Origin: Streptosporangiaceae bacterium
GTDB taxonomy: Bacteria > Actinomycetota > Actinomycetes > Streptosporangiales > Streptosporangiaceae
Assembly (NCBI GenBank): GCA_030050125.1
Contig: JASIJN010000094.1
Coordinates: 1 to 12,445, forward strand
Length of the DNA stretch: 12,445 nucleotides
Direction: 5' to 3'
Within the stretch, counting starts at the first letter, position 1. The number at the start of each line of letters is the position of its first letter. The position numbers and the translations under genes are program-made. Below are positions 1 to 12,445 of this stretch, piece after piece. The notes beneath the pieces are model-generated. The model did no database searches. It was not told where the DNA came from and saw only the letters and a program-made list of their open reading frames with translations.

Positions 1-688
1 CCTCGGCCGCCGCGAGCGCCGCGCCCGGGGGCTCCGGCCAGATGAACTCCGCGACCCGGCCGTGTTCGGCGGCGGGCAGCCCGATGTGCACGTCGGCCCC
101 GAGCGGGCGCGCGACCTCATCCCGCAGCATCGCGCCGACCGTCATGCCGGCCACCCGCCTGATCAGCTCCCCGGCCAGGAACCCGAACGTGTTCACGTGA
201 TAGCCATGCCCGGTTCCGGGCGGCCACCAGGGCGGCTCGGCGGCGAGCGAGGCGGTCATCGTGGCCCAGTCCAGCATGCTGCCGTCCGGCAGCGGATCGC
301 GGAGCGCGGGCAGGCCCGCCTGGTGGCTGAGCAGCTGCCGCACCGTGATGCCCGCCTTTCCGGCGGCGGCGAACTCCGGCCAGTAGCTGGCGACCGGCGC
401 GTCGGGGTCGAGCCGCCGCTGCCCGGCCAGACGGGCCGCGCACACGGCGATCAGGCCCTTGCCGACCGAGAACACGTTCACCAGCGTGTCCCGGCGCCAC
501 GGACGCGGTCCCGGGCCCGCCAGGCCGCCCCACATGTCGGCGACCACGGTCCCCTGGACCACCAGGCAGGCGGCGGCGCCGGTCTCGCCGCGGTCGGCGA
601 AGTTGGCGGCAAAGGCCTCGCGCACGGCGCTGAAACGCGGGTCGCACCGGCCGCCGATGCGCGGTTCGTGTCCAGGCCCAGAACTCAA
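1..688 (-). CDS. Serine hydrolase, class C beta-lactamase/esterase fold (N-terminal part, cut by window edge)
   Basis: The minus-strand frame is open from a TTG at 686-688 to the window edge, giving about 229 codons; the 3' end lies outside. Family members are usually near 380-400 residues, so roughly 60% is visible. The N-terminus has the GGRCDPRFSAVREAF block seen in EstB-type beta-lactamase-related hydrolases. The nucleophile motif S-V-G-K is at residues 74-77, followed by the LLSHQAGLP block (120-128) and the second catalytic motif Y-H-V-N at 163-166, in the context typical of these esterases. No signal peptide is visible, so a cytoplasmic esterase or amidase is more likely than a true secreted beta-lactamase. 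The TTG start is chosen because GGGGGAG lies 6 nt upstream and the family N-terminus begins soon after. Substrate is not predictable. It is divergent from the protease at 1026. Confidence 0.88.
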   Translation of the reverse strand, partial: MSSGPGHEPRIGGRCDPRFSAVREAFAANFADRGETGAAACLVVQGTVVADMWGGLAGPGPRPWRRDTLVNVFSVGKGLIAVCAARLAGQRRLDPDAPVASYWPEFAAAGKAGITVRQLLSHQAGLPALRDPLPDGSMLDWATMTASLAAEPPWWPPGTGHGYHVNTFGFLAGELIRRVAGMTVGAMLRDEVARPLGADVHIGLPAAEHGRVAEFIWPEPPGAALAAAE

Positions 689-1025
689 CCCGTTCTCCCC
701 CCTGCTCCGAGCCCTGGATAACCGGTCATGGAGCTAGTCGGCCTCCTATTCTGGTCAAACGTGACACAAGGTCACTAATAGCTGCTATTCCGGCAATGTG
801 AGCCAGCCAATACAACCAGGATTGCTGAGTGGCTCCGATAAGGATCCAGGCAGCTTAAGATCACTCATTCGTAATTGAAAAGTTATATTGCTGAAAATTC
901 TCATGAAGCTCCATTTACTGCTACCGTCCGGGCTTGTATGTCATCACGTACCTGGCCGTCCGGGCCACGATGCGCTGGGACGCACTCACCGCGGCTGTCT
1001 GGGCCGCCTGGAGGATGAGGCGAGC
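689..1025. promoter_or_regulatory. Divergent intergenic region with inverted repeats upstream of the protease
   Basis: No gene is supported in this 337-base gap between divergent genes. Bases 740-920 are clearly poorer in G/C than the surroundings. Two small inverted repeats lie side by side: GTGAC-ACAAG-GTCAC at 761-775 and AATAG-CTG-CTATT at 777-789. The imperfect direct repeat CTATTCTGG / CTATTCCGG flanks the first. A TATATT at 884-889 could be a -10 box, but no convincing -35 is seen. The 10-mer CCGTCCGGGC occurs at 924-933 and 956-965 in the presumed leader. The repeats look like operator sites, but the regulator is unknown. Confidence 0.4.
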
Positions 1026-4000
1026 ATGCAAGGACGCAGGACGGGCGGGGCCCCATGGGCGCGCGCCCGGGGCAGGTCATTCACCTTTCTCATAGCAGCG
1101 GCGGCGGTGCCGGCCCTGGTGGCCGGACAGTCCGTCATCGCGGGGTCGGCGACAGCCGCGCCCGCGGCGCTGAACGTCGCGACGGCGCCGATGACTCCGG
1201 CGCTGGCCGCACAGCTGTCGCAGCACGTGAACCAGCATGTGATCGTGATCATGAAGAGCCAGCTGGCCGCCGCCCCGGTGGGCAGCCGGGCGGCCACGGT
1301 GCGCGCCGGCATGATCAAGACCGCCCAGAAGCCGCTGTTGAACGAGCTGAGTGCGGTGCACGCCACCCACGTCAAGGCCTACCAGCTCGTGAACTCGTTC
1401 GCGGCCACGGTCTCCGCGGGCGAGGAGTCGCGGCTGAAGGCCAACTCGTCGGTGGCCGAGGTTATCCCGGACGTGACCATCCGCGGGGCGCAGCCCGAGA
1501 CGGCCGGCCCGGCGCAGACCATCACCACGGCGGCGAAGAGGGTCAACCACAAGTCGGACGCGCCGACATCGCTGACCCCGAACGTGATCCCGGGCGCCTG
1601 CGGCGCGAACGGGGCGGTCCAGCTCGACCCCGAGGGCCTCGCGCTGATGGGCGTCGACTCGAGCAACCCGAACCAGCCGACCGCGCGGTCGCTCGGCATC
1701 ACCGGCGCCGGCGTCAAGGTCGCCTACATCGCCGACGGGCTCGACCCGAACAACGTCAACTTCATCCGGCCCGACGGCACGTCGGTGTTCGACCCGGCCA
1801 CGGGCGGCGACTACCAGGACTTCACCGGCGACGGCCCGGGCCAGCTCACCGACGGTGACGAGGCCTTCCTCGACGCCAACTCGATCGCTGGCCAGGGCAT
1901 CCACGTCTACAACGTGCAGGACTACAGCGCGCAGCCCGACCCGTCCGCGTGCAACGTCCGGATCGAGGGCGTGGCTCCCGGCGCGAGCGTGGTCGGCCTG
2001 GACGTGTTCGGCACGTTCGAGGACACCACCGAGTCCAACTTCCTCGAGGCGATCAACTACGCGGTCGAGACCGACCACGTCAACGTCATCAACGAGTCGT
2101 TCGGCTCCAACCCGTTCCCCGACATCACCGCGCTCGACGCGACCAAGCAGTTCGACGACGCCGCGGTCGCGGCCGGCGTCACGGTCACGGTGTCCAGCGG
2201 CGACGCCGGCTCGGCCAACACCATCGGCTCCCCGTCCACCGACCCCAACGTCATCTCGGTCGGCGGGTCGACCGATGACCGCTTCTACGCCCAGACCAAC
2301 TACGCTGCGGCGCGTTACTTCGCCACTACTGGCTGGCTGAACGACAACATCAGCGCGCTTAGCTCCGGCGGCCAGAACGAGACCGGCGGCACGGTCAGCC
2401 TGGTCGCGCCGGCCGAGCTGAGCTGGGCCTCCTGCAGCACCGACATCGCGCTCTACGTTGGGTGCACCAGCCCGATCGGCGAAGCGCCCGGGTTCGAGGA
2501 AGCCGGCGGGACCAGCGAGTCCTCGCCGCTGACCGCGGGCGTCGCGGCGCTGGTGATCCAGGCCTACCGGATCACCCACGGCGGGGCCAGCCCGACGCCG
2601 GCGCTGATCAAGCAGATCCTGGTCAGCACCGCGACCGACCTCGGCGCGCCCGCCGACGAGCAGGGCGCCGGCCTGGTCAACGCGTACAAGGCGGTGCAGC
2701 TCGCCGAGTCGATCAACGGCGGCAGCCCGCAGGGCGCCACGCTGCTCAAGTCGGCGAACTCGCTGAGCGCGACCGCGCTGCCCGGCACCACGCAGAGCTG
2801 GCCGGTCACCGTGACCAACACCGGCTCGGTGCCGCAGCTGGTCAGCGTCCAGGGCCGCGACTTCGGGCCGGACCAGAACGTTCAGAGCGGCACCGCCGTC
2901 CTGAACGACGCCACCAGCCCGCAGTTCGAGAACTACCAGGGCCTGCAGAACAACTACGCCGAATTCCACTTCATCGTCCCGCCGGGCCAGGACCGGCTGG
3001 TCGCGTCCGACTTCTATCCGGGCAACCCGAACAACGGCCTGAACGCGCGGGTGCGGATGATCCTGATCGACCCGTTGGGCCGGTTCGCCTCGCACTCGTT
3101 CCCGCAGGGCGTGGGCAACTTCGACACCGCCGACGTCACCTACCCGACACCGGGCCTGTGGACCGGCGTGCTGTTCGGCGACGTGGCCGCGGATGGCGGG
3201 ACCAACGGGACAGTCGGCTGGCAGGTGTCGACCGAGCAGTTCGCCTCGTTCGGCTCGGTCTCGCCGTCGGTCCTGGCTCTGGCCCCGGGCCAGAGCCAGA
3301 CGGTCACGGTGACCGAGACCACGCCCTCGTCACCTGGTGACTCGGACGGGTCGATCGTGTTCACCTCGAATCTCGGGGCCGGCGGGACCAGCACGATCCC
3401 GGTGACGCTGCGCTCCGAGATCGATCCGGCCAACGGCGGCGCGTTCAGCGGCACGCTGACCGGCGGTAACGGCCGGGCGCCCGGTGAGGGTCAGGAGGAG
3501 TTCTACGAGTTCAACGTCGGCCACGGCGTGAAGAACATCACCGCCAACGTGTCGCTCACCAACGACGTGAACGACCCGGTGGGCTCCTACCTGATCAGCC
3601 CGGACGGCGACACGCTCGGCTTCGGGCAGAACAACACCAACGGCACCCAGACGCTGTCGCTGACCGCGTACACCCTCAACCCGGCGCCCGGCACCTGGAC
3701 GCTCATCGTGGAGTTCTCCGAGCCGGTGGTCGGGGACGAGATCTCCCAGCCGTACACCGGGAACGTGGTGTTCAACGACGTCAGTACCAGCGCCCCCGGG
3801 CTGCCAGACTCCCCGAGGATCGTCCTGGCGGCGGGCACGCCGGTGACCGTCCCTGTGACGATCACGAACAACGGCGACGCGCCGGAGGACTTCTTCGTCG
3901 ACCCGAGGCTGGACCAGACGGCCAACATCACGCTGGCCGGCCAGGACCAGATCGCCGGAGTGACCCTGCCGATGACCGGAGCCGAGCCGGCCTGGTTCGT

Positions 4001-4526
4001 GCCGACGGAGGCGTCCAGCGCCAGCAGCACGTCGACCGCGTCCCTGCCGATCATGTTTGACTGGGGACCGTTCCAGGGCGACCCGGACCTCTCCAGCCAC
4101 AACCCGGGTGCCGGCCCGCTCTGCGCGACGACCGAAACGGTCAGCTACAACCCGCCAGGCGCCAGCATCGAGAACGGCTTCTGGGGCTCCGCCCCGACCG
4201 AATGCGGGCCGTACTCAGGTCCGGCGCCGGCGGGCACCGCCAGCTCGTCCATGACGGTGGTGGCCAAGCAGTTCGACACGTCGGTGAGCTCGACCACGGG
4301 CGACATCGAGCTCGCGTCCATCAACCCGGCCGCGACGGTCAGCCCGGTCACCATCAACCCGGGCCAGACCGCCACCATCGATGTCACGATCACGCCGTCC
4401 GCGGCCCCGGGCACGACGGTGACGGGCACGCTCTACGTTGACGATCTGCTCACGGCGGTTCCGCCGTACGATCAGTTCGCCGCCGACGAGCTGGCCGGAA
4501 TTCCCTACTCCTACACCGTCGGATAA
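1026..4526 (+). CDS. Secreted subtilisin-like S8 serine protease with C-terminal beta-sandwich domains
   Basis: The product is 1166 residues. A signal peptide is visible: Arg-rich n-region, hydrophobic core at 20-40 and an A-x-A type cleavage site near 43-46. Residues 66-152 resemble an I9 inhibitor propeptide. The catalytic domain spans about 200-560, with Asp237 (in IADGLD), His293 (in GQGIHV, where subtilisins have GHGTHV) and Ser497 (in [11 protein letters not shown]). The oxyanion position, normally Asn in AGN, is Asp393 in SSGDAG. Residues 565-800 and 900-1166 look like beta-sandwich modules; about 798-900 resembles a pre-peptidase C-terminal or P-type domain. No sortase motif or anchor is seen, so it is probably released. 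The ATG at 1026 is chosen over an upstream in-frame TTG at 888 because GAGG lies 5 nt before it and the signal peptide starts there. It probably degrades extracellular protein. Confidence 0.93.
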
Positions 4527-4534
4527 GGCGAGAC

Positions 4535-4566
4535 CCCGCGGGGGACCCTAACCGGTCCCCCGCGGG
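4535..4566 (+). terminator. Perfect hairpin after the protease gene
   Basis: A 13-bp perfect stem (4535-4547 with 4554-4566) encloses a 6-nt loop, starting 8 nt after the protease stop. There is no U-tract, which is common for terminators in high-GC actinomycetes. Confidence 0.75.
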
Positions 4567-4609
4567 ACACGCCCTGCGGGCACTTCGCGGGCGAGCCCAG
4601 GGTGCCCTG

Positions 4610-4640
4610 TACGGCCGGTGACGCCATGTCACCGGCCGTA
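4610..4640. terminator. Second perfect hairpin, possible back-up or bidirectional terminator
   Basis: A second 13-bp perfect stem (4610-4622 with 4628-4640) with a 5-nt loop follows the first by 43 nt. The plus strand continues with a modestly T-rich stretch. It could act in either direction, but minus-strand transcripts from 4949 would first cross the repeat region. Confidence 0.6.
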
Positions 4641-4673
4641 TCCTGTTGTGGTCCCGGGGGCTGATTGGGCAAG

Positions 4674-4702
4674 TTCCCATTACCGGACATATCCGCTATA
4701 AC
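4674..4702 (+). promoter_or_regulatory. Weak sigma-70-like promoter match
   Basis: TTCCCA (4674-4679) and TATAAC (4697-4702) are separated by exactly 17 nt. No supported plus-strand gene follows. If active, it would transcribe the repeat region and antisense to the cupin gene. Chance occurrence is quite possible. Confidence 0.25.
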
Positions 4703-4851
4703 CGGTCACCTGGCGGCCTTATCCAGCGCGGCCCAATGACATGAACGGGCCGTCGCTGCTGCTGTTTCAGCAACGATGGGCCGCTCACACTAATCCCCGG
4801 CCTGGCCGGCCGGGTTCGGGGGCGGCCGGGGTTCAGGCAGCGGTGACTGTG

Positions 4852-4943
4852 TGTCCGCGGGGGCGGGAGGGCGTGGTGTCCGCGAGGACGGCGGGGTGTC
4901 CGCGGGGGGGTGCGTTGTCCGCGAGGACGGCGGGCGTCCGCGG
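4852..4943. repeat. Short tandem repeats built on TGTCCGCG with small hairpins
   Basis: TGTCCGCG or CGTCCGCG starts at 4852, 4877, 4897, 4916 and 4935, a spacing of 25, 20, 19 and 19 nt. The 19-mer TGTCCGCGAGGACGGCGGG occurs exactly at 4877-4895 and 4916-4934. Each full copy contains GTCC-GCGA-GGAC, a 4-bp stem closed by a GNRA-type tetraloop when read on the plus strand. The rest of 4641-4851 shows no gene. The repeats end 6 nt before the cupin stop codon, so on the minus strand they form its 3' flank. Confidence 0.7.
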
Positions 4944-4948
4944 AACGG

Positions 4949-5380
4949 TCAGGGAGCGCTGGTTCCGGCTCGCCCGTAGCGGTCCTCGAGCCGGACCACG
5001 TCCTCGCGCCATCCTGGATAGGCGGTGGACGCCTCGGCGAAGTCCAGGTCCGAGATCGCGGTGATCCGGTGCAGCACGCCCGCCGGGAGGTGGATGGTGT
5101 CTCCGGGGCCGAAGTGCCGATCGGTCAGCCGGTCGGCAGCGGCGCCGTACTCGATCAGCGCCTCCCCGATCATGACGCTGATCGTCTCCTCCTTCTTCCG
5201 GTGGTACTGCAGGCTGAGCGAGTGTCCGGCATCGACGTGGATGATCTTTCCGATGTACTTGCCGTCGGCCGCGGCGAAGATCAGCTCGTGTCCCCAGGGT
5301 TTGTCCTGCCTGGCCGCCCGGTAGATCTCGGCCTCCGGAACCTGGGCGGGCGGGTCGCCAGCGTTCTGGGTGCTGCTCAT
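4949..5380 (-). CDS. Cupin protein of mannose-6-phosphate isomerase type II family
   Basis: The product is 143 residues, a single cupin barrel matching the C-terminal isomerase domain of bifunctional GDP-mannose pyrophosphorylase/PMI proteins or stand-alone type II PMI-like proteins. Motif 1 is LSLQYHRKKEE, with predicted metal ligands Gln58, His60 and Glu64 or Glu65. Motif 2 is PGDTIHLPAGVLHRI, with His104 as the fourth ligand. The C-terminal WREDVVRLEDRYGR block is a PMI hallmark. It probably binds a sugar phosphate or nucleotide sugar in the cytoplasm, but activity on mannose-6-phosphate is not assured at this length. The ATG at 5380 has GGAGG 4 nt upstream. It lies 67 nt downstream of the gluconokinase on the same strand and may be co-transcribed. 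Confidence 0.9.
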   Translation of the reverse strand: MSSTQNAGDPPAQVPEAEIYRAARQDKPWGHELIFAAADGKYIGKIIHVDAGHSLSLQYHRKKEETISVMIGEALIEYGAAADRLTDRHFGPGDTIHLPAGVLHRITAISDLDFAEASTAYPGWREDVVRLEDRYGRAGTSAP

Positions 5381-5447
5381 GAATCCTCCAACGTGTCACC
5401 CGCCTGGCAGGGGCGGGTCAGGGTCGGTCCCGGCGCCAGGCATGATC

Positions 5448-5957
5448 TTATGCACGGTCGGCCACCAGCCCGAGGCAGTCGGCGATCTCCGCGGCCAGCC
5501 GGTCCGCAGGCTGGGCCGCGTCGAGCAGAATTACTTGCTCGCTTTCCCTGGGTTCCTCGAGCTCGGCGAACTGGCTGTCCAGCAGCTGGACGGTGAAGAA
5601 GTGGCCGTGTCGTGCGGCTAGCCGGGCATGCGCGAGCTCCCTGCTGATCACCAGGAACGCCAGCCTGGCCGCGGGCCGCCCGGTGAGCAACTGGTCCCGG
5701 TAGCTCTGCTTCAGGGCCGAGCATCCGGCGACCGCCGACTCCCCCGCCGCTATGCGCTCGTCCATCCACGCGGCGATCCCGGCCAGCCAGGGCGCGCGGT
5801 CGGCGTCGGTAAGCGGGATGCCCGACCGCATCTTCGCGATATTCGCCGAGGGATGAAACGCGTCGGCGTCGGCGAAGCGCCAGTGCAGCCGCCCGGCCAG
5901 CAACACGCCAACCGTCGTCTTGCCGCTGCCCGCCACACCGCCCACGAGAACGATCAT
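5448..5957 (-). CDS. gntK: Gluconokinase
   Basis: This 169-residue protein would phosphorylate D-gluconate with ATP to 6-phosphogluconate, feeding the pentose phosphate pathway. The Walker A motif GVAGSGKT is at residues 7-14. The family signature DADAFHPSANIAKMRSG follows from Asp30, then the IPLTDADRAPWL block (47-58), and the CSALKQSYRDQL substrate/lid region. HFFTVQLLDSQFAELEEP is the typical C-terminal region. Length is normal for the thermoresistant gluconokinase family. The ATG at 5957 is the natural start, because the hydrophobic first strand begins immediately before the P-loop; no strong Shine-Dalgarno site is visible. It heads a likely two-gene unit with the cupin at 4949-5380. No gluconate transporter or regulator is in the window. 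Confidence 0.94.
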   Translation of the reverse strand: MIVLVGGVAGSGKTTVGVLLAGRLHWRFADADAFHPSANIAKMRSGIPLTDADRAPWLAGIAAWMDERIAAGESAVAGCSALKQSYRDQLLTGRPAARLAFLVISRELAHARLAARHGHFFTVQLLDSQFAELEEPRESEQVILLDAAQPADRLAAEIADCLGLVADRA

Positions 5958-6400
5958 CGAGGCACAGCGTACCGGGCGCCGGCGCGGGGCGGCAGCGGGT
6001 CAGCCCGGGAGGAACCAGGGTCCCGGCGGCAGCCGACGACGGCGCTTCAGCGAGAGCGGCGAGCCGCGCACCGCCTCACCGGCGGCTGTGGTGGCCCCAG
6101 GGCTCGGCGTGGCCGGGCCACGCGGCACGGCAACCGGTCCCGCTGGCGCGAGCCGTCACCTCGGGCGAATAACTCGCACAGGAATCTCTTTCGCCAGCAC
6201 ATTGCTCCCTCGTGGCATAGGAGGCAGTCTCGTTACGACGGAGTTATAACACGGTCCCGGCCACAGCAGAAGCGGTTCTCTGATTGCAATCTGCAGAACG
6301 CACGTTTGATTTCGCAGCAAAGGCTAATAGGCCATGTACTATTGGGTTGTTTGGTGCCTTTGCGCAGCTTTCCCCGCCCACCGCTGAATACTGACCTTGT
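5958..6400. other. Intergenic region without supported genes; contains palindromes
   Basis: About 440 bases between the gluconokinase start and the terminator of the cold shock gene hold no convincing coding frame. From about 6160 the base composition becomes AT-richer. A perfect palindrome GATTGCAATC is at 6282-6291, and an inverted repeat AATAG-N8-CTATT at 6326-6343 shares its arms with the one at 777-789. TTATAAC-type sequence near 6244-6250 could belong to a promoter on either strand. The gluconokinase promoter should be in this gap but cannot be placed. Confidence 0.35.
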
Positions 6401-6433
6401 GAAAAGAACCCGGGGGGCGAAGGCCCCCCGGGT
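6401..6433 (-). terminator. Strong intrinsic terminator of the cold shock gene
   Basis: An 11-bp perfect stem (6408-6418 with 6423-6433) encloses a 4-nt loop, followed on the minus strand by TTCTTTTC (6407-6400). It starts 23 nt after the csp stop codon. This is the most classical terminator in the window. Confidence 0.92.
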
Positions 6434-6456
6434 CCCTCGTGCGTGGCCTGGCCGGA

Positions 6457-6660
6457 TCAGAGCGGGCGGACCTGCTCGGCCTGTGGGCCCTTGGCACCCT
6501 GGCCGGCGGTGAACTCGACCCGCTGGTTCTCGTGCAAGCTGCGGAACCCGTCAACCTGGATCGCGGTGTGATGCACGAAGACGTCGGCGGTGCCATCGTC
6601 CGGTGCGATAAAGCCATAGCCCTTGTCGGCGTTGAACCACTTTACGGTGCCCTGAGGCAT
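6457..6660 (-). CDS. cspA: Cold shock protein, CspA family
   Basis: A 67-residue single cold-shock domain, the usual length for bacterial Csp proteins. RNP1 (KGYGFI, residues 13-18) and RNP2 (VFVHH, 27-31) provide the aromatic RNA/ssDNA-binding surface; the N-terminal [15 protein letters not shown] block is nearly consensus. It is expected to act as an RNA chaperone in the cytoplasm. The ATG at 6660 is preceded by AGGAG 7 nt upstream. A 238-base gap separates it from the upstream gene on the same strand, room for its own promoter and a long structured 5' leader as is common for csp genes. The transcript ends at the terminator 6401-6433, so it is probably monocistronic. Confidence 0.96.
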
Positions 6661-6898
6661 TTACCTTCTCCTACGAGACGATCTCCGGGATCCTCTTCTG
6701 AGGGCCCCGGGTTGCCGCGGCCGTGCGTCTGCTTTGTGGGCCCCGGACTCCGAGAGACCGGCTCTCAGATCCGGCGGGCGCAGGTCGCATGAAAATCCGA
6801 ACGCAACCAGGGCTATCCAACACCATCGGCGATGCCGATGTTACGCGGTCCAGCGAGTTCGCCGTTTTGTCGCGCTCGTCCCGCAGAGCTTTCCGCGC
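6661..6898. other. Leader/promoter gap upstream of cspA
   Basis: No independent gene is supported. A hairpin CATCGGC-GAT-GCCGATG (6824-6840) lies about 60 nt after the stop of the upstream minus-strand gene and may be its weak terminator. GGGCCCCGG occurs twice (near 6703 and 6739). The frame that follows the UAG stop of the 6899-7594 gene remains open for 75 codons until a second UAG at 6671-6673. A cspA promoter is expected here but no clear pair of hexamers was found. Confidence 0.35.
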
Positions 6899-7594
6899 CT
6901 ATCCAAACAGCGGCAGCCGCCGCGCCAGCTCGCCTAGGACCGCCCGATCGGCGGCGGTGACCGGCGCCCGGCCGGTGCCCTTGAGGGCGCAGGTCTGGTC
7001 GTCCCATTCACCGGGCATGGGCGTACCGAGCAACCCATCCAGGACCCACCGCACCAGGGCAAGGGAGGCGGCGTCAGGGGGCGGGGCCGAGGGCAGCGCC
7101 ACGGTCAGGTCGAGGTAGTGAACGGCGGCCTCCACTGCCAGCGTGGCCATGAAGTCGACCGTGGTCAGCACGTGCCCCTGGGTCGCGACCGCCTGGTGCG
7201 GACAGGCACGGGCCGCGCGGCAGGCTGCCTCGGAGGTCTCCCGCCACTCCCACTGCAGGCCGCCCGGCGGATAGGCCGAGGCCACCATGCGCACGTGCCG
7301 TGCGTGGGCCGCGGCCTCCGCGCGCCCGGCCTGGGCCGACTCGCCCAGAAGAGGGTAGAGGGCCCAGTACCCGACCTGGTCCACGTCGGGGGGCTCGGCC
7401 GACGGACTGGCAAACGTGCGCAGCGCGCGCCGGGCGTCGAGTAGCTCGTGATACAGGACGTCGGCGACGGCCCAGCCGGCACACCGGCTGGGCAGCATCA
7501 GGTCGGCCTCGCTCAGGCCATCGGCGACCGCGGTGATGTTCCGGTAGACGGACTCGAGCGCGCCCACGACTTCGATGCGGCGCCGTTCGGCCAT
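6899..7594 (-). CDS. DinB/maleylpyruvate isomerase-like (mycothiol-dependent) metal-binding protein
   Basis: The 231-residue product has the four-helix DinB-like fold of the actinobacterial maleylpyruvate isomerase N-terminal family. The probable Zn triad is His49 (in VADVLYHEL), Glu155 and His159 (in EAAVHYLDL), matching the H...E-x3-H pattern known from mycothiol-dependent maleylpyruvate isomerase. The CAGWAVADVLYH block around residue 38 is characteristic. The actual reaction is unknown; most paralogues in actinomycetes are uncharacterised thiol-dependent enzymes. The ATG at 7594 is preferred over an in-frame TTG at 7654, since the family homology begins right after it, though no good Shine-Dalgarno site is seen. 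The gene ends in UAG, which matters because a UAG-reading tRNA is encoded nearby at 8424. It is divergent from the Pth2-like gene. Confidence 0.85.
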   Translation of the reverse strand: MAERRRIEVVGALESVYRNITAVADGLSEADLMLPSRCAGWAVADVLYHELLDARRALRTFASPSAEPPDVDQVGYWALYPLLGESAQAGRAEAAAHARHVRMVASAYPPGGLQWEWRETSEAACRAARACPHQAVATQGHVLTTVDFMATLAVEAAVHYLDLTVALPSAPPPDAASLALVRWVLDGLLGTPMPGEWDDQTCALKGTGRAPVTAADRAVLGELARRLPLFG

Positions 7595-7656
7595 GGCGCT
7601 GATTCTGCCAGCGGCGGCCAGGCCGCCGTGCCGCACGGTCGCGCGGCGGCGCAAAG

Positions 7657-7685
7657 TGGTCGAGCGGGCCAGCGACGGCTATAAT
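7657..7685 (+). promoter_or_regulatory. Promoter with canonical TATAAT for the Pth2-like/suppressor tRNA cassette
   Basis: A perfect -10 hexamer TATAAT occupies 7680-7685. At 17-nt spacing the -35 position (7657-7662, TGGTCG) matches TTGACA at only three positions. Seven nucleotides after the -10 box is G7693, the first base of a GTG codon, so the predicted transcript would start exactly on a start codon (leaderless). A perfect TATAAT is notable in such GC-rich DNA. Confidence 0.65.
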
Positions 7686-7692
7686 GCGATTT

Positions 7693-8052
7693 GTGCCGCA
7701 CCGCTAGGGCTACGGTCTTCCTCGCCTGTACCTGATTACCCGGGCCGATCTGCATCCCGGAACGCAGGCTTGCCAGGCGGCGCACGCGGCAATCGACTTC
7801 GCCCTCGCCTTCCCGGCCATGGCCGGCGACTGGCATGCGGCATCGAACACCCTGGTCGTCCTGGCGGTCGCCGATGAGCTGTCTCTGGGCTGGCTCTGCG
7901 ACGACGCCGAGGCCGGGGGCCTGCGTGTGGTCCGGTTCCACGAACCGGACCTCGGTGGCGCCCTGACCGCGGCCGCGTTCGAGCCGGCCGCGGCTCACCT
8001 GGTTTCTCGCCTCCCGCTCGCCTTCTCGCGAGGAGAGGAGGTGAAAAGATGA
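7693..8052 (+). CDS. Peptidyl-tRNA hydrolase 2 (Pth2)-like protein with in-frame UAG at codon 5
   Basis: From the leaderless-position GTG at 7693 the frame reads four codons, then UAG (7705-7707), then runs open to TGA at 8050-8052; total 119 residues counting the UAG, the usual length of compact Pth2 proteins. The body shows Pth2 features: strand LYLITRADL, then P-G-T-Q-A-C-Q-A-A-H-A with conserved Gln28 and His31, the WHAASNTLVVLAV strand, and the C-terminal FHEPDLGGALTA block replacing the DAGxT motif. The Lys of the classical G-K-x-A-x-Q motif is Thr, as in a divergent bacterial branch. Pth2 enzymes release peptides from stalled peptidyl-tRNA. Without readthrough, the only starts before the conserved domain are non-canonical (CTG 7726, no Shine-Dalgarno); ATG 7819 would delete half the fold. 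The stop overlaps the next ATG. Confidence 0.75.
8036..8048 (+). promoter_or_regulatory. Perfect Shine-Dalgarno site embedded in the end of the Pth2-like gene
   Basis: AGGAGGTG at 8036-8043 is fully complementary to the 16S rRNA tail and lies 5 nt before the ATG at 8049. The same bases encode the charged C-terminal tail EEVKR of the Pth2-like protein. The ATGA overlap implies translational coupling, while the strong site also permits independent initiation. Confidence 0.85.
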
Positions 8053-8354
8053 CCGTTCCTTCTGACGCAGCCGCTCTGCGCGCGCAGCTTGTCGAGCTCG
8101 CCGCGGAGCGGGACGCGCTGCGGGCCCAGCTCGACGGGGACCTGCCTGCGGCCACGCGCTGGCTGCAGCGCAAGGTGTGGCGGCAGGCCGCGGCCCTGGA
8201 CGCGCTGAACCGTCGCGTGGTGACGCAGCGGTTCGTGCTGCGGAGTCTCGACGAGCTCGGCCGGTCGCTAACCGCGGCCGAGTACCGGGCCGCCCGGGCC
8301 CGGATCGCGAACGCCCAGTTGCGCGATCGGATCCAGGATCCGGACGCGGCCTGA
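8049..8354 (+). CDS. Small helical/coiled-coil protein of unknown function
   Basis: A 101-residue protein with no recognised family. Residues 7-35 have heptad-like spacing of Leu and Ala with charged residues (AALRAQLVELAAERDALRAQ) and should form a coiled coil. The middle (40-70) is basic, with K-V-W-R and R-R-V-V-T-Q-R clusters, and the C-terminus returns to an Ala/Arg-rich helix. No signal peptide, membrane segment or Cys is seen. Its ATG overlaps the stop of the Pth2-like gene (ATGA) and has the best ribosome binding site in the window, so it is very likely a real, co-translated partner. The basic helical character would suit binding to RNA or a partner protein, but this is a guess. It ends in TGA, so its translation is not affected by amber suppression. 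Confidence 0.8.
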   Translation: MTVPSDAAALRAQLVELAAERDALRAQLDGDLPAATRWLQRKVWRQAAALDALNRRVVTQRFVLRSLDELGRSLTAAEYRAARARIANAQLRDRIQDPDAA

Positions 8355-8380
8355 GCACAATGGGGCTAGGCCGGGCGGCC

Positions 8381-8400
8381 GCGCGGCCCACTGGCCGCGC
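8381..8400 (+). terminator. Hairpin between the coiled-coil gene and the suppressor tRNA
   Basis: GCGCGGCC (8381-8388) pairs perfectly with GGCCGCGC (8393-8400) around a CACT loop, 26 nt after the coding stop and 23 nt before the tRNA. It may be a terminator without a U-tract or a processing/attenuation structure controlling how much transcript enters the tRNA. Overlapping GC palindromes make the actual fold uncertain. Confidence 0.45.
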
Positions 8401-8423
8401 TGTGCCGGCCGGTCGCCCCGCCA

Positions 8424-8495
8424 ACCCCAGGAGCCCGACGGTAGGGCAGCCGCCTCTAAAGCGGAGTGCAGCGGGTTCGACTCCCGCCTGGGGTA
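8424..8495 (+). tRNA. Amber suppressor tRNA, anticodon CUA (reads UAG)
   Basis: A complete 72-nt cloverleaf can be drawn. The acceptor stem ACCCCAG (8424-8430) pairs perfectly with CTGGGGT (8488-8494); discriminator A8495. The D-arm is GCCC/GGGC (8433-8436, 8444-8447) with a 7-nt loop. The anticodon stem 8449-8453/8461-8465 has four pairs and one G-A mismatch at the top. The loop is CTCTAAA (8454-8460), with U33 at 8455 and anticodon C-U-A at 8456-8458. A 5-nt variable loop follows, then a perfect 5-bp T-stem with loop TTCGACT (8476-8482). CCA is not encoded. The normal D-loop GG, canonical T-loop, 2-nt acceptor-D linker and 5-nt variable loop exclude a pyrrolysine tRNA. The short variable arm excludes Leu, Ser and bacterial Tyr types. 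The amino acid carried is unknown. Confidence 0.9.
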
Positions 8496-8529
8496 CGCGT
8501 TCTGCTTGATCATCTTGCGGCCGGGGCGC

Positions 8530-9015
8530 TCAGGGCTGGGGGCGGGCGATCGGCGCGACGGTGGCGTTCGCCGCCCGGACCAGGTCGCCCGGGGCCAGCT
8601 CGATCTCCAGCCCGCGCCGCCCGCCGCTGCAGTAGACGGTGGGGAACTCCAGCGCGGTCGCGTCGATGACCACGGGCAGCCTTCGGCGCTGGCCGACCGG
8701 CGAGATCCCGCCCGCCACGTAGCCGGTCGCCCGTTCTGCCGCGGCCACGTCGGCCATGGCGCCCTTCTTGCCGCCGACCGCGGCGGCCAGCGCCTTCAGG
8801 TCAAGCTGGGCGGACACCGGCACCACGCCCACGGCCAGCGCTCCGTCCACGTCGGCGACCAGGGTCTTGAACACCCGGCCGGACGGCACTCCCAGTGCCT
8901 CGGCGGCTTCCGTCCCATAGGAGCCGTGCCGGGGGTCATGCTCATAGGTGTGCACCGTGTGCGGGATGCCCAGCCTGGTCAGCAGCGCCGTCGCCGCGGT
9001 GCCTTGTCCGGCCAC
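8530..9015 (-). CDS. ybaK: Cys-tRNA(Pro)/Cys-tRNA(Cys) deacylase, YbaK/EbsC family
   Basis: This 161-residue protein belongs to the YbaK/ProX trans-editing family, which hydrolyses Cys mischarged on tRNA(Pro). Visible signatures are the catalytic-type Lys50 in RVFKTLVADVDG, the GGISPVGQ loop (102-109) and the C-terminal SGGRRGLEIEL strand (130-140). Length is standard. The start is GTG at 9015; no purine-rich site precedes it, so the exact start is less certain. It lies 52 nt downstream of the anti-sigma gene on the same strand and could be transcribed with it. It converges on the suppressor tRNA, 34 nt away; a second tRNA-related function beside the cassette may be meaningful or coincidental. 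Confidence 0.93.
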   Translation of the reverse strand: MAGQGTAATALLTRLGIPHTVHTYEHDPRHGSYGTEAAEALGVPSGRVFKTLVADVDGALAVGVVPVSAQLDLKALAAAVGGKKGAMADVAAAERATGYVAGGISPVGQRRRLPVVIDATALEFPTVYCSGGRRGLEIELAPGDLVRAANATVAPIARPQP

Positions 9016-9067
9016 GGGAGGTCAGCGTAGCCCAGGACCGCCCGCCCCCGGACGGCTTCGCGCGCGG

Positions 9068-9364
9068 CTACCGGGGCGGGTCCCCGCGCGGCTCACCGCC
9101 ACCGTCGGCGCGCCAGCGCCGGTACAGCGCGATGAACTCGTCCTGCACCGGCTCCGGGAGGTCATCGACGGTGATCGACCCGGTGAGCTCGATCGTCGCG
9201 CGCATCTGGGCCAGGTACTCGGTGCAGTGCGGGCAGCCGGCCAGGTGCGCCTCGAACCGGCGCCGGCCAGAACGCGACAGTGAGCCCTCGAGGTAGTCGG
9301 TGACCAGCTCGACGGCCTGCTGGCAGACCAGGTCGCGGCGGGAAAGCCGCAGCTTGGACAGCAT
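9068..9364 (-). CDS. Zinc-binding anti-sigma factor (ZAS/zf-HC2 type)
   Basis: A 98-residue protein with the putative zinc-finger anti-sigma signature: Cys14, His40, Cys44 and Cys47, the last three in HLAGCPHC (H-x3-C-x2-C). No membrane segment is visible, so it should be a soluble, cytoplasmic ZAS protein that holds the adjacent sigma factor; such proteins are often redox sensitive through zinc-ligand cysteines. The ATG at 9364 follows the sigma gene stop by 2 nt, and GGGAGG within the sigma gene end serves as its ribosome site, pointing to coupled synthesis. The C-terminal tail is Gly/Arg/Pro-rich and disordered. The gene ends in UAG; readthrough would add a tail of a few dozen residues. 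Confidence 0.92.
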   Translation of the reverse strand: MLSKLRLSRRDLVCQQAVELVTDYLEGSLSRSGRRRFEAHLAGCPHCTEYLAQMRATIELTGSITVDDLPEPVQDEFIALYRRWRADGGGEPRGDPPR

Positions 9365-9366
9365 GG

Positions 9367-9963
9367 TCAGGCCCTCCCGAACTCGGTCTCAAGAACCTGG
9401 CGCAGCCGGCTGCGGCCGCGGTGCAGCAGCACCCTCTGGTTGCCTTCGCTGATCTCCAGCACGCTGCACACCTCGTCGCTGGTGAGGCCCTCGATGTCAC
9501 GCAGCACGACGACCTCCCGCTGGCGGTCGGGCAGGTCATCAATGGCCGACCTGAGCCGGTCCGCCATTTTCGCGGCGTCGACCCGGCACTCGGCCTCCTC
9601 GATCCAGCGCTCCGGCGGGTCGGCCCAGTGGCCTGTGCCGTCGAACCGGGACCCGTCGACGGCCGGCTCCAGGTCGCCGACGGCCACGCTGCGCCGTTCC
9701 CGGGTCCCGGCGGTCCGGGCCCGGTTCACCAGGATCCGCAGCAGCCAGGTCCGGACCGACGACCGTCCCTCGAACCCGCCGATGCCGCGCAGCACGCCGA
9801 GCCAGGTGTCCTGCACCACTTCCTCGGCCACGGCCATGCTCGGGACATACCCCCGGGCGAGCCGGAGCATGGCGGCGTGGTGGCGGCGGACCAGGATGAC
9901 GAAGGCCTGCTCGTCGCCCGCGCGCAGCCGGGCGAGCAGTACCGCGTCCGCGTCCTGATCCAC
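9367..9963 (-). CDS. ECF-family RNA polymerase sigma factor
   Basis: The 198-residue product has sigma region 2 at about 20-88, including the AEEVVQDTWLGVL segment (46-58) and the RTWLLRILVNRA segment (71-82), and region 4 at about 140-193 with IDDLPDRQREVVVLRDIEGL followed by the helix-turn-helix ending HRGRSRLR. A 50-residue linker separates them; regions 1 and 3 are absent, as expected for ECF factors. The partner anti-sigma factor follows 2 nt downstream. GTG at 9963 is given as start, but AGGAGG lies 18 nt upstream of it; a CTG at 9972 would be 9 nt from that site, so the protein may be three residues longer. The secreted propeller gene ends 45 nt upstream, so these genes may share a transcript. 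Confidence 0.93.
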   Translation of the reverse strand: MDQDADAVLLARLRAGDEQAFVILVRRHHAAMLRLARGYVPSMAVAEEVVQDTWLGVLRGIGGFEGRSSVRTWLLRILVNRARTAGTRERRSVAVGDLEPAVDGSRFDGTGHWADPPERWIEEAECRVDAAKMADRLRSAIDDLPDRQREVVVLRDIEGLTSDEVCSVLEISEGNQRVLLHRGRSRLRQVLETEFGRA

Positions 9964-10008
9964 CGCCGCCAGCCTAACGGGCCTCCTTTCGGGCTCGCAG
10001 CCGCTCGA

Positions 10009-11160
10009 TCAGGCCGCCACGATGCCCTCGCCGCCGGCGGCTCCGGCCACGGTCACGTGGCCCACCTCGGCCAGCGACCCGCCGGGAGAGACGGCGAACT
10101 CGTCCACCACGCCGTTCCCGCCGGTCTGGACGTAGAGGAACCGGCCACCCGGCGTGACCGCGGCGTCCACGGTGCCGGGATCGGTCGCGGTCTGGCCGAG
10201 GAGCGTGAGCGCCCCGCCCGGGCCGGAGGCGTAGCCGCTGATCGTCGCGCTGCCGGCGTTCGAGGCGAACAGCAGGCCGCGGTCGGCCACGACCCAGCAG
10301 GTGGCCGACTGTCCGGTGCCGACCGTGTCGAGCGAGGTCAGCGTGCCGTCCGGCTCGAGCGTGAACGTCGAAAGGGCATTGGTGCCGGCATCGGCGACGA
10401 CCAGGTGACCCGCGGGGTCGAAGGTAATCGCGAACGGGACCGCGCCCGGCTCGGCGTTCACCGTCGGCGTGCCCGACAGCAGGCCATTGGCGAGGACGCC
10501 GAACACGTCGATGTCACTGCCATTCGCCTTGGTGGTCACGATCAGCTGCGCGCCGTCCGGCGAGAACGCGGCCTGGCCCGGGGTGTTGGTGAACTGCGGG
10601 GTCGCCGACGGGTTCAGGCCCAGCGACCGGGCCGACCCGGGGATCGGGACCAGCCACCCGGCCACCACCCAGTAGCCGGCCACCGAGCCGCCGCCCTCCG
10701 CGTTCAGGACGTAGACCAGGTCCCCGTGGACCGCGACGCTGACCGGGAACGCCCCGCCCGAGCCGATCACCTGCCGCAGCCGCAGCCGGTCGCCCTGGAC
10801 CGCGAAGACCGACACCGTGTCGCTGCCCGCGTTCACCGCGTACAGCAGCCCCCGGCTCGGGTCGTAGCCCAGCGATCCCTGGGAGGCCAGGTGATCCACG
10901 ACCGAGCCGGCGAGCTGTCCGCCGAGCCCGCCGGTCGGATAGGTGCCGGCCAGGGTCAGGGTGCCGTCGCCGGCCCGGCGGTAGGCCACGACCTGATTGC
11001 CCGCGAGGTTGTCGGTCTGCACGAACACGGCGCGGCCGCCGGGCCACCCGGGCGTGGTCGCGGCGCCGGCCGCCGCCACCGAGCCCCCGGCGGCCAGCAC
11101 CAAGCCCGCGACCAGAGTGCTGCCGAGGCCGGCCGTCACGAGACGAGCCAGGACTTTCAT
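10009..11160 (-). CDS. Secreted lactonase-family (YncE/6-phosphogluconolactonase-like) beta-propeller protein
   Basis: A 383-residue protein with an N-terminal Sec signal peptide (Lys/Arg start, hydrophobic core about 9-28, A-x-A cleavage near 30-35). The rest consists of repeated blades of the type GLLYAVNAGSDTVSVFAV, AAFSPDGAQLIVTTKANG and GRFLYVQTGGNGVVDEFAV, the hallmark of seven-bladed lactonase/YVTN-type propellers. Because it is exported, a role in 6-phosphogluconolactone hydrolysis is unlikely; binding or an extracytoplasmic role is more plausible. AAGGAGGAG sits upstream of the ATG at 11160, a clear ribosome site. It lies between the fibronectin-III protein gene and the ECF sigma gene, all on the same strand. 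No lipobox or sortase motif is seen. Confidence 0.88.
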   Translation of the reverse strand: MKVLARLVTAGLGSTLVAGLVLAAGGSVAAAGAATTPGWPGGRAVFVQTDNLAGNQVVAYRRAGDGTLTLAGTYPTGGLGGQLAGSVVDHLASQGSLGYDPSRGLLYAVNAGSDTVSVFAVQGDRLRLRQVIGSGGAFPVSVAVHGDLVYVLNAEGGGSVAGYWVVAGWLVPIPGSARSLGLNPSATPQFTNTPGQAAFSPDGAQLIVTTKANGSDIDVFGVLANGLLSGTPTVNAEPGAVPFAITFDPAGHLVVADAGTNALSTFTLEPDGTLTSLDTVGTGQSATCWVVADRGLLFASNAGSATISGYASGPGGALTLLGQTATDPGTVDAAVTPGGRFLYVQTGGNGVVDEFAVSPGGSLAEVGHVTVAGAAGGEGIVAA

Positions 11161-11180
11161 GCGCTCTCCTCCTTGAAGAC

Positions 11181-11220
11181 GAATGGACCATGCGCCATTC
11201 AGTCCTCGCCGGAGACGGCG
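11181..11220 (-). promoter_or_regulatory. Inverted repeats in the gap upstream of the propeller gene
   Basis: GAATGG-N8-CCATTC (11181-11200) and CGCCG-GAGA-CGGCG (11207-11220) fill the 76-base gap between two minus-strand genes. The second may be a weak terminator for the upstream gene; the first could be an operator next to the ribosome site of the propeller gene. Functions are inferred only from symmetry. Confidence 0.35.
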
Positions 11221-11236
11221 CGTTACAGTCGGCCTT

Positions 11237-12445
11237 TCAGAGGGCCTTTACGCTCAGGAAGCCGGCTGGACCAGGGTCCCGATAGATATTGACCGCCGCG
11301 ACCTCGAACTGGTACGTCAGGCCCGGGACGAGCCCGGTGATCGTGGCCCGCGGCCCTGCGACGGTCCGGACCGGCACATAGCTTCCCGACACGCTGCGGA
11401 TGAGGACCCGGTAGCGCAGCCCCAGCCCGGCCGACGGCCAGCTCAGCGCGGCTGTCCCGGGGCCTGACCGGGCCGTGATGCCGGAGACGGCCGGCACCGG
11501 CGGGCAGCCGCCCGGGTAGGACCACGCGCTGAACCACAGGCCCGGGTCCTGCTGGGTGATGGCCGGGTAATCCGGGGCCGCGGCCCGGGCATGCCCGCGG
11601 CGCGCGCCAGGCGGGCCGAAGGCCGACATCGGCACCGCGATGAACCGCGGCTGGGTCATCGCGTTGGTGAAGTGCGTTATGGACAGGCACGCGGCGGTGA
11701 CCGCCTCCGAGTTGACGTTGTAGCTGATCACCAGCGTCTGCGCGGTGGACAGGGCCGGCTCGGCGCGGGCCTCGTACATGACCCGGAAGTCGTCGGCGGC
11801 CGACAGGCCGATGCCGGGAGCCCGGTACAGCACGATGCCCTCTGCCCGGTCGAACGGCCCCCAGGGCGCGGGCCCGGGGTAGGCGTCGATGTCGGGCGTC
11901 CCGGTCCCGGCCGTCTCTATCAGCCAGTAGCGCCCGTCGGCCGGCACGACGCTGAAGCCGGAGGGGACGTCGAGATGCTGGCCGGCCGGCTCGATCGGCT
12001 GGGCCTGGCTCTGGCTGCCGGTCCACTGCCCGGCGGCGTAGAACCGCCAGGCGCCGAAGTCGGCCAGCCGGCCGGCGTCGACCCGGGCCAGGTACAGCTC
12101 GCGGACCGGGCTGGCCGGGTCCGGGCTCTGCCAGCCGTACACGTAAACGGTGCCGTCGGCCGGGCCGGCCCGCAGCACCGCCGCCCCCCAGACGATCGGC
12201 GTTCCGCCGCCGGGCGGGGTGTACCCGGGCACCCGGGTGAGCCCTGGGCGGGCCACGCCGCCGTACGCCGGGCCGGCCCCGGCCGCGCTGAGCTCGCTGA
12301 CCGGGTAGCTGGCGATCGTCGTGCCGACCGGGACGAACGGGATCGGCCCCGGCAGATAGTCGTTGTAGAACTTGACCACGGTGCCGCCGACCCGGATCCC
12401 GTCGCCGTCCCACTCCCGCTGGCCCGAGGCCGGGTCCGGCGGCTC
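11237..12445 (-). CDS. Probable extracellular beta-propeller-like protein with C-terminal fibronectin III domain (N-terminus outside window)
   Basis: 402 residues are visible and the frame is still open at the right edge, so the start is missing. The visible N-terminal 300 residues have repeated segments such as GTVYVYGWQSP, WRFYAAGQWTG, GFSVVPADGRYWLIET and TLVISYNVNSEAV, resembling DUF4185/DUF5005-type propeller proteins that look like glycoside hydrolases; this assignment is tentative. The last 95 or so residues (from VPAVSGITARSG) form a fibronectin type III domain, with the typical W, Y and L core positions and ending VAAVN. Fn3 domains on actinomycete proteins commonly accompany secreted polysaccharide-active enzymes. 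No anchor follows. The gene precedes the lactonase-type propeller gene by 76 nt, so both may be exported together and perhaps regulated with the sigma factor. Confidence 0.75.
   Translation of the reverse strand, partial: EPPDPASGQREWDGDGIRVGGTVVKFYNDYLPGPIPFVPVGTTIASYPVSELSAAGAGPAYGGVARPGLTRVPGYTPPGGGTPIVWGAAVLRAGPADGTVYVYGWQSPDPASPVRELYLARVDAGRLADFGAWRFYAAGQWTGSQSQAQPIEPAGQHLDVPSGFSVVPADGRYWLIETAGTGTPDIDAYPGPAPWGPFDRAEGIVLYRAPGIGLSAADDFRVMYEARAEPALSTAQTLVISYNVNSEAVTAACLSITHFTNAMTQPRFIAVPMSAFGPPGARRGHARAAAPDYPAITQQDPGLWFSAWSYPGGCPPVPAVSGITARSGPGTAALSWPSAGLGLRYRVLIRSVSGSYVPVRTVAGPRATITGLVPGLTYQFEVAAVNIYRDPGPAGFLSVKAL

Follow-up and report, generated by a model that had tools for sequence, protein, structure and literature searches.

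An actinobacterial cassette joins a UAG-interrupted operon to a CUA tRNA: a candidate for self-gated nonsense suppression

Results

Architecture of the cassette

The DNA studied here is a stretch of 12,445 nucleotides (nt) from a Streptosporangiaceae bacterium (GenBank assembly GCA_030050125.1, contig JASIJN010000094.1, positions 1 to 12,445), which we call the window. Within about 820 bases, with all parts on one strand, it holds a cassette consisting of a promoter hexamer, a gene for a Pth2-like protein interrupted by an in-frame UAG at codon 5, a coupled gene for a small basic protein termed HP here, and a tRNA with anticodon CUA. The parts are listed below.

7680..7685, + strand: −10 hexamer TATAAT, 7 nt ahead of the start codon; a leaderless transcript is predicted
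7693..7704, + strand: leader codons GTG-Pro-His-Arg (V-P-H-R), with GTG at 7693-7695
7705..7707, + strand: in-frame UAG, codon 5, kept in 23/23 cassettes
7708..8052, + strand: open frame of the Pth2-like domain (Pfam PTH2), TGA stop at 8050-8052
8036..8041, + strand: Shine-Dalgarno sequence AGGAGG of HP, within the 3′ end of the Pth2-like gene
8049..8354, + strand: HP, a basic helical protein of 101 amino acids, whose ATG overlaps the Pth2-like TGA (ATGA)
~8362..8419, + strand: GC-rich hairpin between the HP stop and the tRNA (z −3.03)
8424..8495, + strand: tRNA with anticodon CUA (CTA in DNA), found by ARAGORN and Rfam RF00005; loop CUCUAAA, A73, no U8, open G27-A43

An earlier note on this stretch, made from the letters alone, had named the TATAAT, the GTG, the UAG, the Pth2-like frame, the coupled gene and the CUA tRNA, and every one of these lies where it had placed them. 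It overlooked the hairpin and a second in-frame UAG that occurs in some Nocardia copies of HP.

Relatives and their distribution

A search of 5.8 billion proteins returned 1031 HP homologues at E 0.001, with 79-98% identity among the 120 matches listed, and 243 homologues of the Pth2-like domain (120 listed). Loci were gathered by searching genomes for HP rather than for the UAG. After removal of duplicates, 22 distinct cassettes remained besides the window, giving 23 that are not phylogenetically independent, together with two decayed copies. The cassette finder allowed any stop at codon 5 and required a stop plus a tRNA with the CUCUAAA loop; it excluded only the decayed copies (L017/L122 and L121).

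The hosts include Nocardia, Actinomadura, Virgisporangium, Asanoa, Dactylosporangium, metagenome-assembled genomes (MAGs) of Streptosporangiaceae and Micromonosporaceae, and further relatives. The layout is patchy across actinobacteria, and several genera share it. HP was found in 2/297 genomes of the Actinomadura order, 6/148 of the genus Nocardia, 5/297 of the family of a Streptosporangiaceae MAG (L009) and 11/250 of the Virgisporangium family, one of these being a fragment; the Nocardia order gave one strong and three weak matches among 397 genomes. These samples overlap, and only the best first-look candidates were scored. Three Nocardia-order matches (L023-L025; E 1.7e-4 to 4e-4) cover about 50 residues of frames of 476-702 codons; they were taken as chance coiled-coil similarity and not counted.

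A fixed UAG at codon 5

Codon 5 is UAG in all 23 distinct intact cassettes, although the finder would have accepted any stop, and the following base is G in 21 of them. The earlier note had proposed an amber-readthrough cassette and an alignment of related loci as a check on its UAG. That alignment bears the proposal out at the sequence level: the UAG, the predicted leaderless start, the coupled genes and the CUA tRNA are kept together across genera. Relatives without the tRNA or with a sense codon at the UAG would have spoken against it; none of the 22 other intact cassettes lacks the tRNA (the L018 contig ends inside it), and a sense codon occurs in 0/22. In 23/23 cassettes a TANNNT motif precedes the start codon by 6-7 nt, as against 16/6210 background positions, and a leaderless mRNA is therefore predicted. 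Together with the tRNA covariation described below, these counts put the pattern well outside what chance would give.

The start codon (M or V) is followed by P-H-R in 10/23 cassettes, and codon 2 is Pro in 21/23; the other versions are PFR, PHF, PHY, PHP, PYR, PNR, SQF, THR and PFE. Across codons 2-4 of 17 copies, synonymous and nonsynonymous pairwise differences are equal (144 vs 144), which indicates moderate constraint on the peptide while the UAG is fixed.

The frame continues through the UAG to a TRxD motif 7-10 codons downstream in 23/23 cassettes. In an AlphaFold2 (AF2) model of the Pth2-like domain, β-strand 1 spans residues 6-12 after the UAG. Of the 22 cassettes that carry this domain, 15 have their first post-UAG ATG, GTG or TTG beyond the motif, five have it inside strand 1, no more than three codons from the motif, and two (L012 and L015) have it ahead of strand 1. 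A clear downstream start, a further feature that the earlier note had held to argue against readthrough, is therefore missing from most relatives and present in these two. L118, whose Pth2-like domain is lost, likewise has no ATG, GTG or TTG before the motif. In the window, starting at the first ATG would delete strand 1 and the first long helix. Because the standard starts lie past strand 1, synthesis of the Pth2-like domain would need readthrough, or initiation at CTG or another codon, in 15/22 cassettes.

These data also bear on a rival reading: V/MPHR-UAG would encode a short leader peptide, ribosomes would stop at the UAG and start anew further 3′ to make the Pth2-like protein, and the tRNA would do no more than tune termination. 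The leader is indeed conserved, with variation greatest at third codon positions, and CTG or GTG occurs near strand 1 in 18/23 loci. Gene callers, too, put the protein starts close behind the stop: of 120 listed protein relatives, the short frame of the window included, 119 start past the RxDL motif or at most nine residues ahead of it. A stop just upstream would itself be expected to cause such late annotated starts. Against reinitiation, the four Shine-Dalgarno-like strings sought before a restart were present only in L015, and five of the 23 cassettes have no NTG at all, CTG counted, between the UAG and the motif. Moreover, a mere leader would require neither a preserved frame, nor UAG over UGA, nor a CUA tRNA. 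We consider this explanation unlikely.

A recoding hairpin of the selenocysteine type was also sought 3′ of the UAG. The consensus fold over 120 nt of 13 cassettes was weak (−4.8 kcal/mol), and this candidate was rejected.

An atypical CUA tRNA under selection

The window tRNA matches Rfam RF00005 with 53.7 bits (E 1.9e-9); the ARAGORN label, pyrrolysine tRNA (tRNA-Pyl), reflects nothing but its anticodon. In an alignment of 13 of the tRNAs (12 distinct), 98.4% of the cells are paired, and both-side changes occur in seven of the 21 stem pairs. None of 500 shuffles reached the pairing or the both-side value, and 84/500 reached a third measure, "further pair types". Judged from these substitutions, the cloverleaf of the CUA tRNA is under selection.

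Its core is unusual. None of the 23 has U at position 8, where A, G or C stands instead; position 14 holds G in 20 of them and A in the other three, and position 15 holds A in all 23. In Nocardia suismassiliense, by comparison, T8 was found in 44 of 45 ordinary tRNAs, the odd one being an ARAGORN call that seems to be one base off (the 45 tRNAs examined are to be distinguished from 56 matches that were counted separately). The cassette tRNA of this species resembles Glu-CUC, Arg-CCU, Asn and Lys-CUU loosely, and none of the 45 is a clear parent isoacceptor. The window tRNA also has an open G27-A43 pair. In the excerpted text of PMC13092985, which concerns four-pair anticodon stems, a G27-A43 mismatch is cited as raising UAG readthrough by a CUA-mutated tRNA-Thr.

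Co-occurrence and probable local recoding

Strong HP matches and CUCUAAA-loop tRNAs, the only class covered by the tRNA pattern scan, occurred in exactly the same ten of 250 Micromonosporaceae genomes; a reversed-pattern control gave 0. The cassette-type Pth2 is present in nine of the ten, the tenth being G921, the genome of L118. Seven further genomes of the 250 (L142-L148) carry only weaker, distant Pth2-like genes and have neither HP nor a CUCUAAA-loop tRNA.

These features also decay together. Asanoa has an intact copy (L116) and a second copy (L017/L122) that lacks the leader and has a broken frame, a stop in HP and an altered anticodon loop, and the fragment L121 has no tRNA. Such copies, and an in-frame stop as the usual sign of a pseudogene, might suggest that the window merely holds a decaying gene beside an unrelated or dead tRNA. 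Comparison contradicts this: the same stop is kept 23/23 across genera, HP is closely conserved among the listed matches, the tRNA shows compensatory changes, and HP and the tRNA share the same ten genomes. We give this view almost no chance of being right.

A cognate CUA tRNA could alternatively be a general nonsense suppressor, or a sign of wider UAG reassignment, with the operon UAG as one site among many. Suppressor tRNAs do occur in bacteria, in 0.3% of the 42,109 genomes surveyed according to the excerpted text of PMC13092985. Stop usage argues against such a role. TAG ends 34/159 genes in three Nocardia genomes with the cassette and 27/111 in six without it (p 0.66; crude gene finder, pieces of up to 20 kb, nine genomes in all), and organism-wide reassignment was rejected since TAG is not avoided as a terminator. 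Furthermore, the CUCUAAA-loop tRNA was never seen without HP in the 250 genomes, and pyrrolysyl-tRNA synthetase (PylRS) exceeded the cut-off in 0/22 cassette genomes, nine of which gave weak sub-threshold matches; a control search exceeded it in 1/14 genomes. A general suppressor has a very slim chance here. The sampled genomes instead suggest, from their sequences, that UAG is an ordinary stop in them and that its recoding is local to the cassette.

A pyrrolysine system was rejected on the lack of any PylRS match over the cut-off in these 22 genomes and on cloverleaf shape. The excerpted text of PMC7609411 gives tRNA-Pyl a 6-bp anticodon stem and a 3-nt variable arm, features that the cassette tRNA, whose anticodon stem has five positions and whose variable loop has 4-5 nt, does not share.

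The Pth2-like protein

The window protein scores 26.5 bits against Pfam PTH2 (cut-off 23) and only 20.5 bits against the NCBIfam Pth2 equivalog model (cut-off 126). The AF2 model of the domain is confident (mean predicted local distance difference test (pLDDT) 92.5), and Foldseek matched it to archaeal and human Pth2 with query template-modelling (TM) scores of 0.72-0.78 for the top seven and E down to 7.9e-7. Alignment to solved Pth2 located the column of the conserved lysine after strand 1, which we take to be the catalytic residue. This column is never K in 42/42 aligned sequences, which have T, V, I, A, D or S instead, and hydrolase activity is therefore doubtful. In L118 the domain is lost, and no Pth2 match elsewhere in genome G921 was listed. 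That locus keeps the leader MPHY-UAG, HP and the tRNA, and its UAG leader and HP share a reading frame.

The earlier note had inferred a loop in which Pth2, by recycling peptidyl-tRNA, acts back on tRNA or stalled-ribosome levels and hence on its own synthesis; one conceivable substrate would be fMPHR-tRNA released at the UAG. The fold is clear from both sequence and structure, and the leader resembles drop-off minigenes. The replaced lysine, the equivalog score and an otherwise complete cassette without Pth2 all count against the loop, which we think has a slim chance. The cassette protein thus shares the fold and the Pfam family of the Pth2 enzyme and differs from it in these three respects.

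A separate observation concerns phage Pth2 homologues in viral contigs (L001-L004, at about 3780-4030; 46-49% identical). They begin at the very 3′ end of a tRNA gene and have no ATG before strand 1; upstream, the frame stays open across this tRNA, and across a tandem pair of tRNAs in L002-L004. The anticodon arm of the upstream tRNA of L002-L004 (about 3840-3923) appears to be enlarged and to include an additional hairpin, whose sequence differs among them; ARAGORN calls this tRNA Ala, Thr or unknown. L005 has an ordinary ATG.

HP and its second UAG

HP is a basic four-helix protein with an isoelectric point of 10.9, and AF2 predicts an all-helical structure (pLDDT 89.3; predicted TM score 0.56). 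It belongs to no Pfam, NCBIfam or PADLOC family, its match to PHROG is marginal (E 0.013), and its fold has no match at E 0.001 in PDB or viral structures. A weak uL29-like match (E 0.34) was taken as coiled-coil chance. Neither cassette protein matches the PADLOC models of known anti-phage defence systems, and membership in a known defence family was rejected on this ground. HP relatives were likewise absent from viral_contigs, phages and plasmids, and the reading as phage or plasmid cargo was rejected on that basis.

Most printed relatives have a purine-rich stretch like AGGAGG ahead of HP. The HP stop codon is TGA in 19 of the 23 loci, TAA in four and TAG in none; given 34/159 genes ending in TAG, the naive chance of this is about 0.004, uncorrected for kinship. 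Three distinct Nocardia copies (L007, L016 and L026) have a second in-frame UAG at HP codon 8, where L008, L018 and L030 have CAG. This does not prove insertion of glutamine, because CAG to TAG is a single transition and the region of HP is variable.

Mean column identity is 66% for HP vs 40% for the Pth2-like protein, in alignment sets that were differently chosen. HP rather than Pth2 is likely the effector, as far as sequence comparison can tell, since it is the better conserved of the two and Pth2 is missing from one intact cassette. The constant core of the cassette is HP, the UAG leader and the tRNA.

A hairpin before the tRNA

The HP stop and the tRNA are separated by 35-96 nt, which fold into GC-rich stems of differing sequence in the 23 cassettes (mean z −3.27; z below −2 in 20/23). 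The fold ends 0-9 nt before the tRNA, or 14 nt in L015. Because it ends so near, a promoter would not fit between stem and tRNA in most loci; L015 is an exception, and so is L014, whose strong stem is the distal one. CAnnATG boxes, present in some of the loci, stand before the stem everywhere except in L015. The L015 box, CACCATG, lies between hairpin and tRNA and may mark a tRNA promoter.

Discussion

A candidate self-gated operon

We propose that the cassette is a self-gated nonsense-suppression operon, expressed through its own CUA tRNA reading the codon-5 UAG, a reading drawn from sequence comparison to which we assign a probability of roughly three in four. The UAG would halt most ribosomes. 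The tRNA at the cassette end, taken to be charged, would decode it, and the Pth2-like protein and the coupled HP would then be made, with operon expression depending on the tRNA.

The anatomy hints, more weakly, at positive feedback. The hairpin sits a few bases past the HP stop and, at most loci, immediately 5′ of the tRNA. A ribosome arriving at that stop could therefore disrupt the hairpin and thereby favour transcription or processing of the tRNA. By a further, speculative step, the cassette could form a natural bistable switch: a little CUA tRNA would permit readthrough to the HP stop, the hairpin would open, more tRNA would follow, and the operon would be locked on. HP would then be a new effector that must not leak, possibly in a stress or phage response when UAG termination falters. 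We regard the switch as possible and, on balance, doubtful.

Several observations weigh against the proposal of self-gated suppression. Decoding of the UAG is not certain because the tRNA core is unusual, with no U8 in 23/23, and since TAG is not avoided genome-wide, any suppression must be weak, conditional or context-bound. In 18/23 cassettes the stretch from the UAG to the motif contains an NTG, in many cases CTG, at which weak internal initiation could occur. The protein relative P0069 extends 24 residues above the motif and, judged from its protein sequence only, may lack the UAG. In the Nocardia HP copies with the second UAG, a TTG four codons past it could restart translation. As for the feedback, it would fall away if the CAnnATG box of 12/23 loci served as the tRNA's own promoter, as it may; hairpin z is above −2 in L009, L021 and L030; and the hairpin might just as well be a simple terminator or a processing stem.

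Relation to known systems

With selenocysteine and pyrrolysine, a stop codon is used by a dedicated tRNA, and special synthesis machinery delivers a special residue. Pyrrolysine decoding, which relies on tRNA-Pyl and PylRS and serves UAG in methylamine methyltransferases, resembles the cassette in pairing an in-frame UAG of a linked system with a CUA tRNA dedicated to it. The cassette differs in its genomes, without PylRS over the cut-off, in its cloverleaf, and in having its UAG outside the folded domain, for which reason the codon looks like a gate rather than an active-site residue. In amber-recoded phages, UAG is read by an encoded suppressor tRNA and many genes are recoded. The cassette likewise encodes a tRNA that would read its UAG, whereas its recoding is apparently confined to itself, and HP has no relatives in the viral, phage and plasmid sets. 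Ordinary bacterial suppressor tRNAs are anticodon mutants that likewise have a CUA anticodon; the cassette tRNA is near no single isoacceptor (in the one genome compared), is kept across genera and is tied to one operon.

A further parallel is engineered. The excerpted text of PMC7969014 describes a feed-forward "leak dampener" in E. coli in which the supP tRNA and UAG-interrupted genes are placed under one control, with no protein formed unless the tRNA is produced. The 23 loci similarly hold a putative suppressor tRNA and a UAG-interrupted gene in one unit. The cassette differs from that design, as the excerpt presents it, in being natural, in its atypical tRNA and in its possible hairpin feedback, with dependence of its output on the tRNA being predicted. 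Open-access literature in PubMed Central yielded no description of a cassette of this kind, and the excerpted portions of PMC8629427 and PMC7918605 describe none.

A unit of about 800 bases thus carries both a locked frame and a fitting tRNA, with no common adjoining synthetase found, in hosts that end about one-fifth of their sampled genes with UAG. If readthrough holds true, nonsense suppression would be a natural regulatory principle and not just a laboratory trick. The cassette is a convenient system in which to study how the rest of the proteome is protected from local recoding, how a tRNA functions when U8 is missing, and the role of HP. It is easily missed by automatic annotation, since the starts of relatives are placed after the stop and the tRNA is called pyrrolysine by ARAGORN.

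Neighbouring genes

No widely common neighbour gene, such as a synthetase, was found within 4 kb of the cassettes, as far as the contigs reach, and the cassette therefore appears to be an independent unit. A gene family is held in common, at differing distances, by the pairs window/L014, window/L008 and L012/L018, and a downstream frame is common to four Nocardia loci. In the window, a gene for a YbaK-like tRNA-editing domain (8530-9015, − strand) adjoins the cassette tRNA; among the other loci, a relative occurs only in L014, about 3.5 kb off and on the opposite side.

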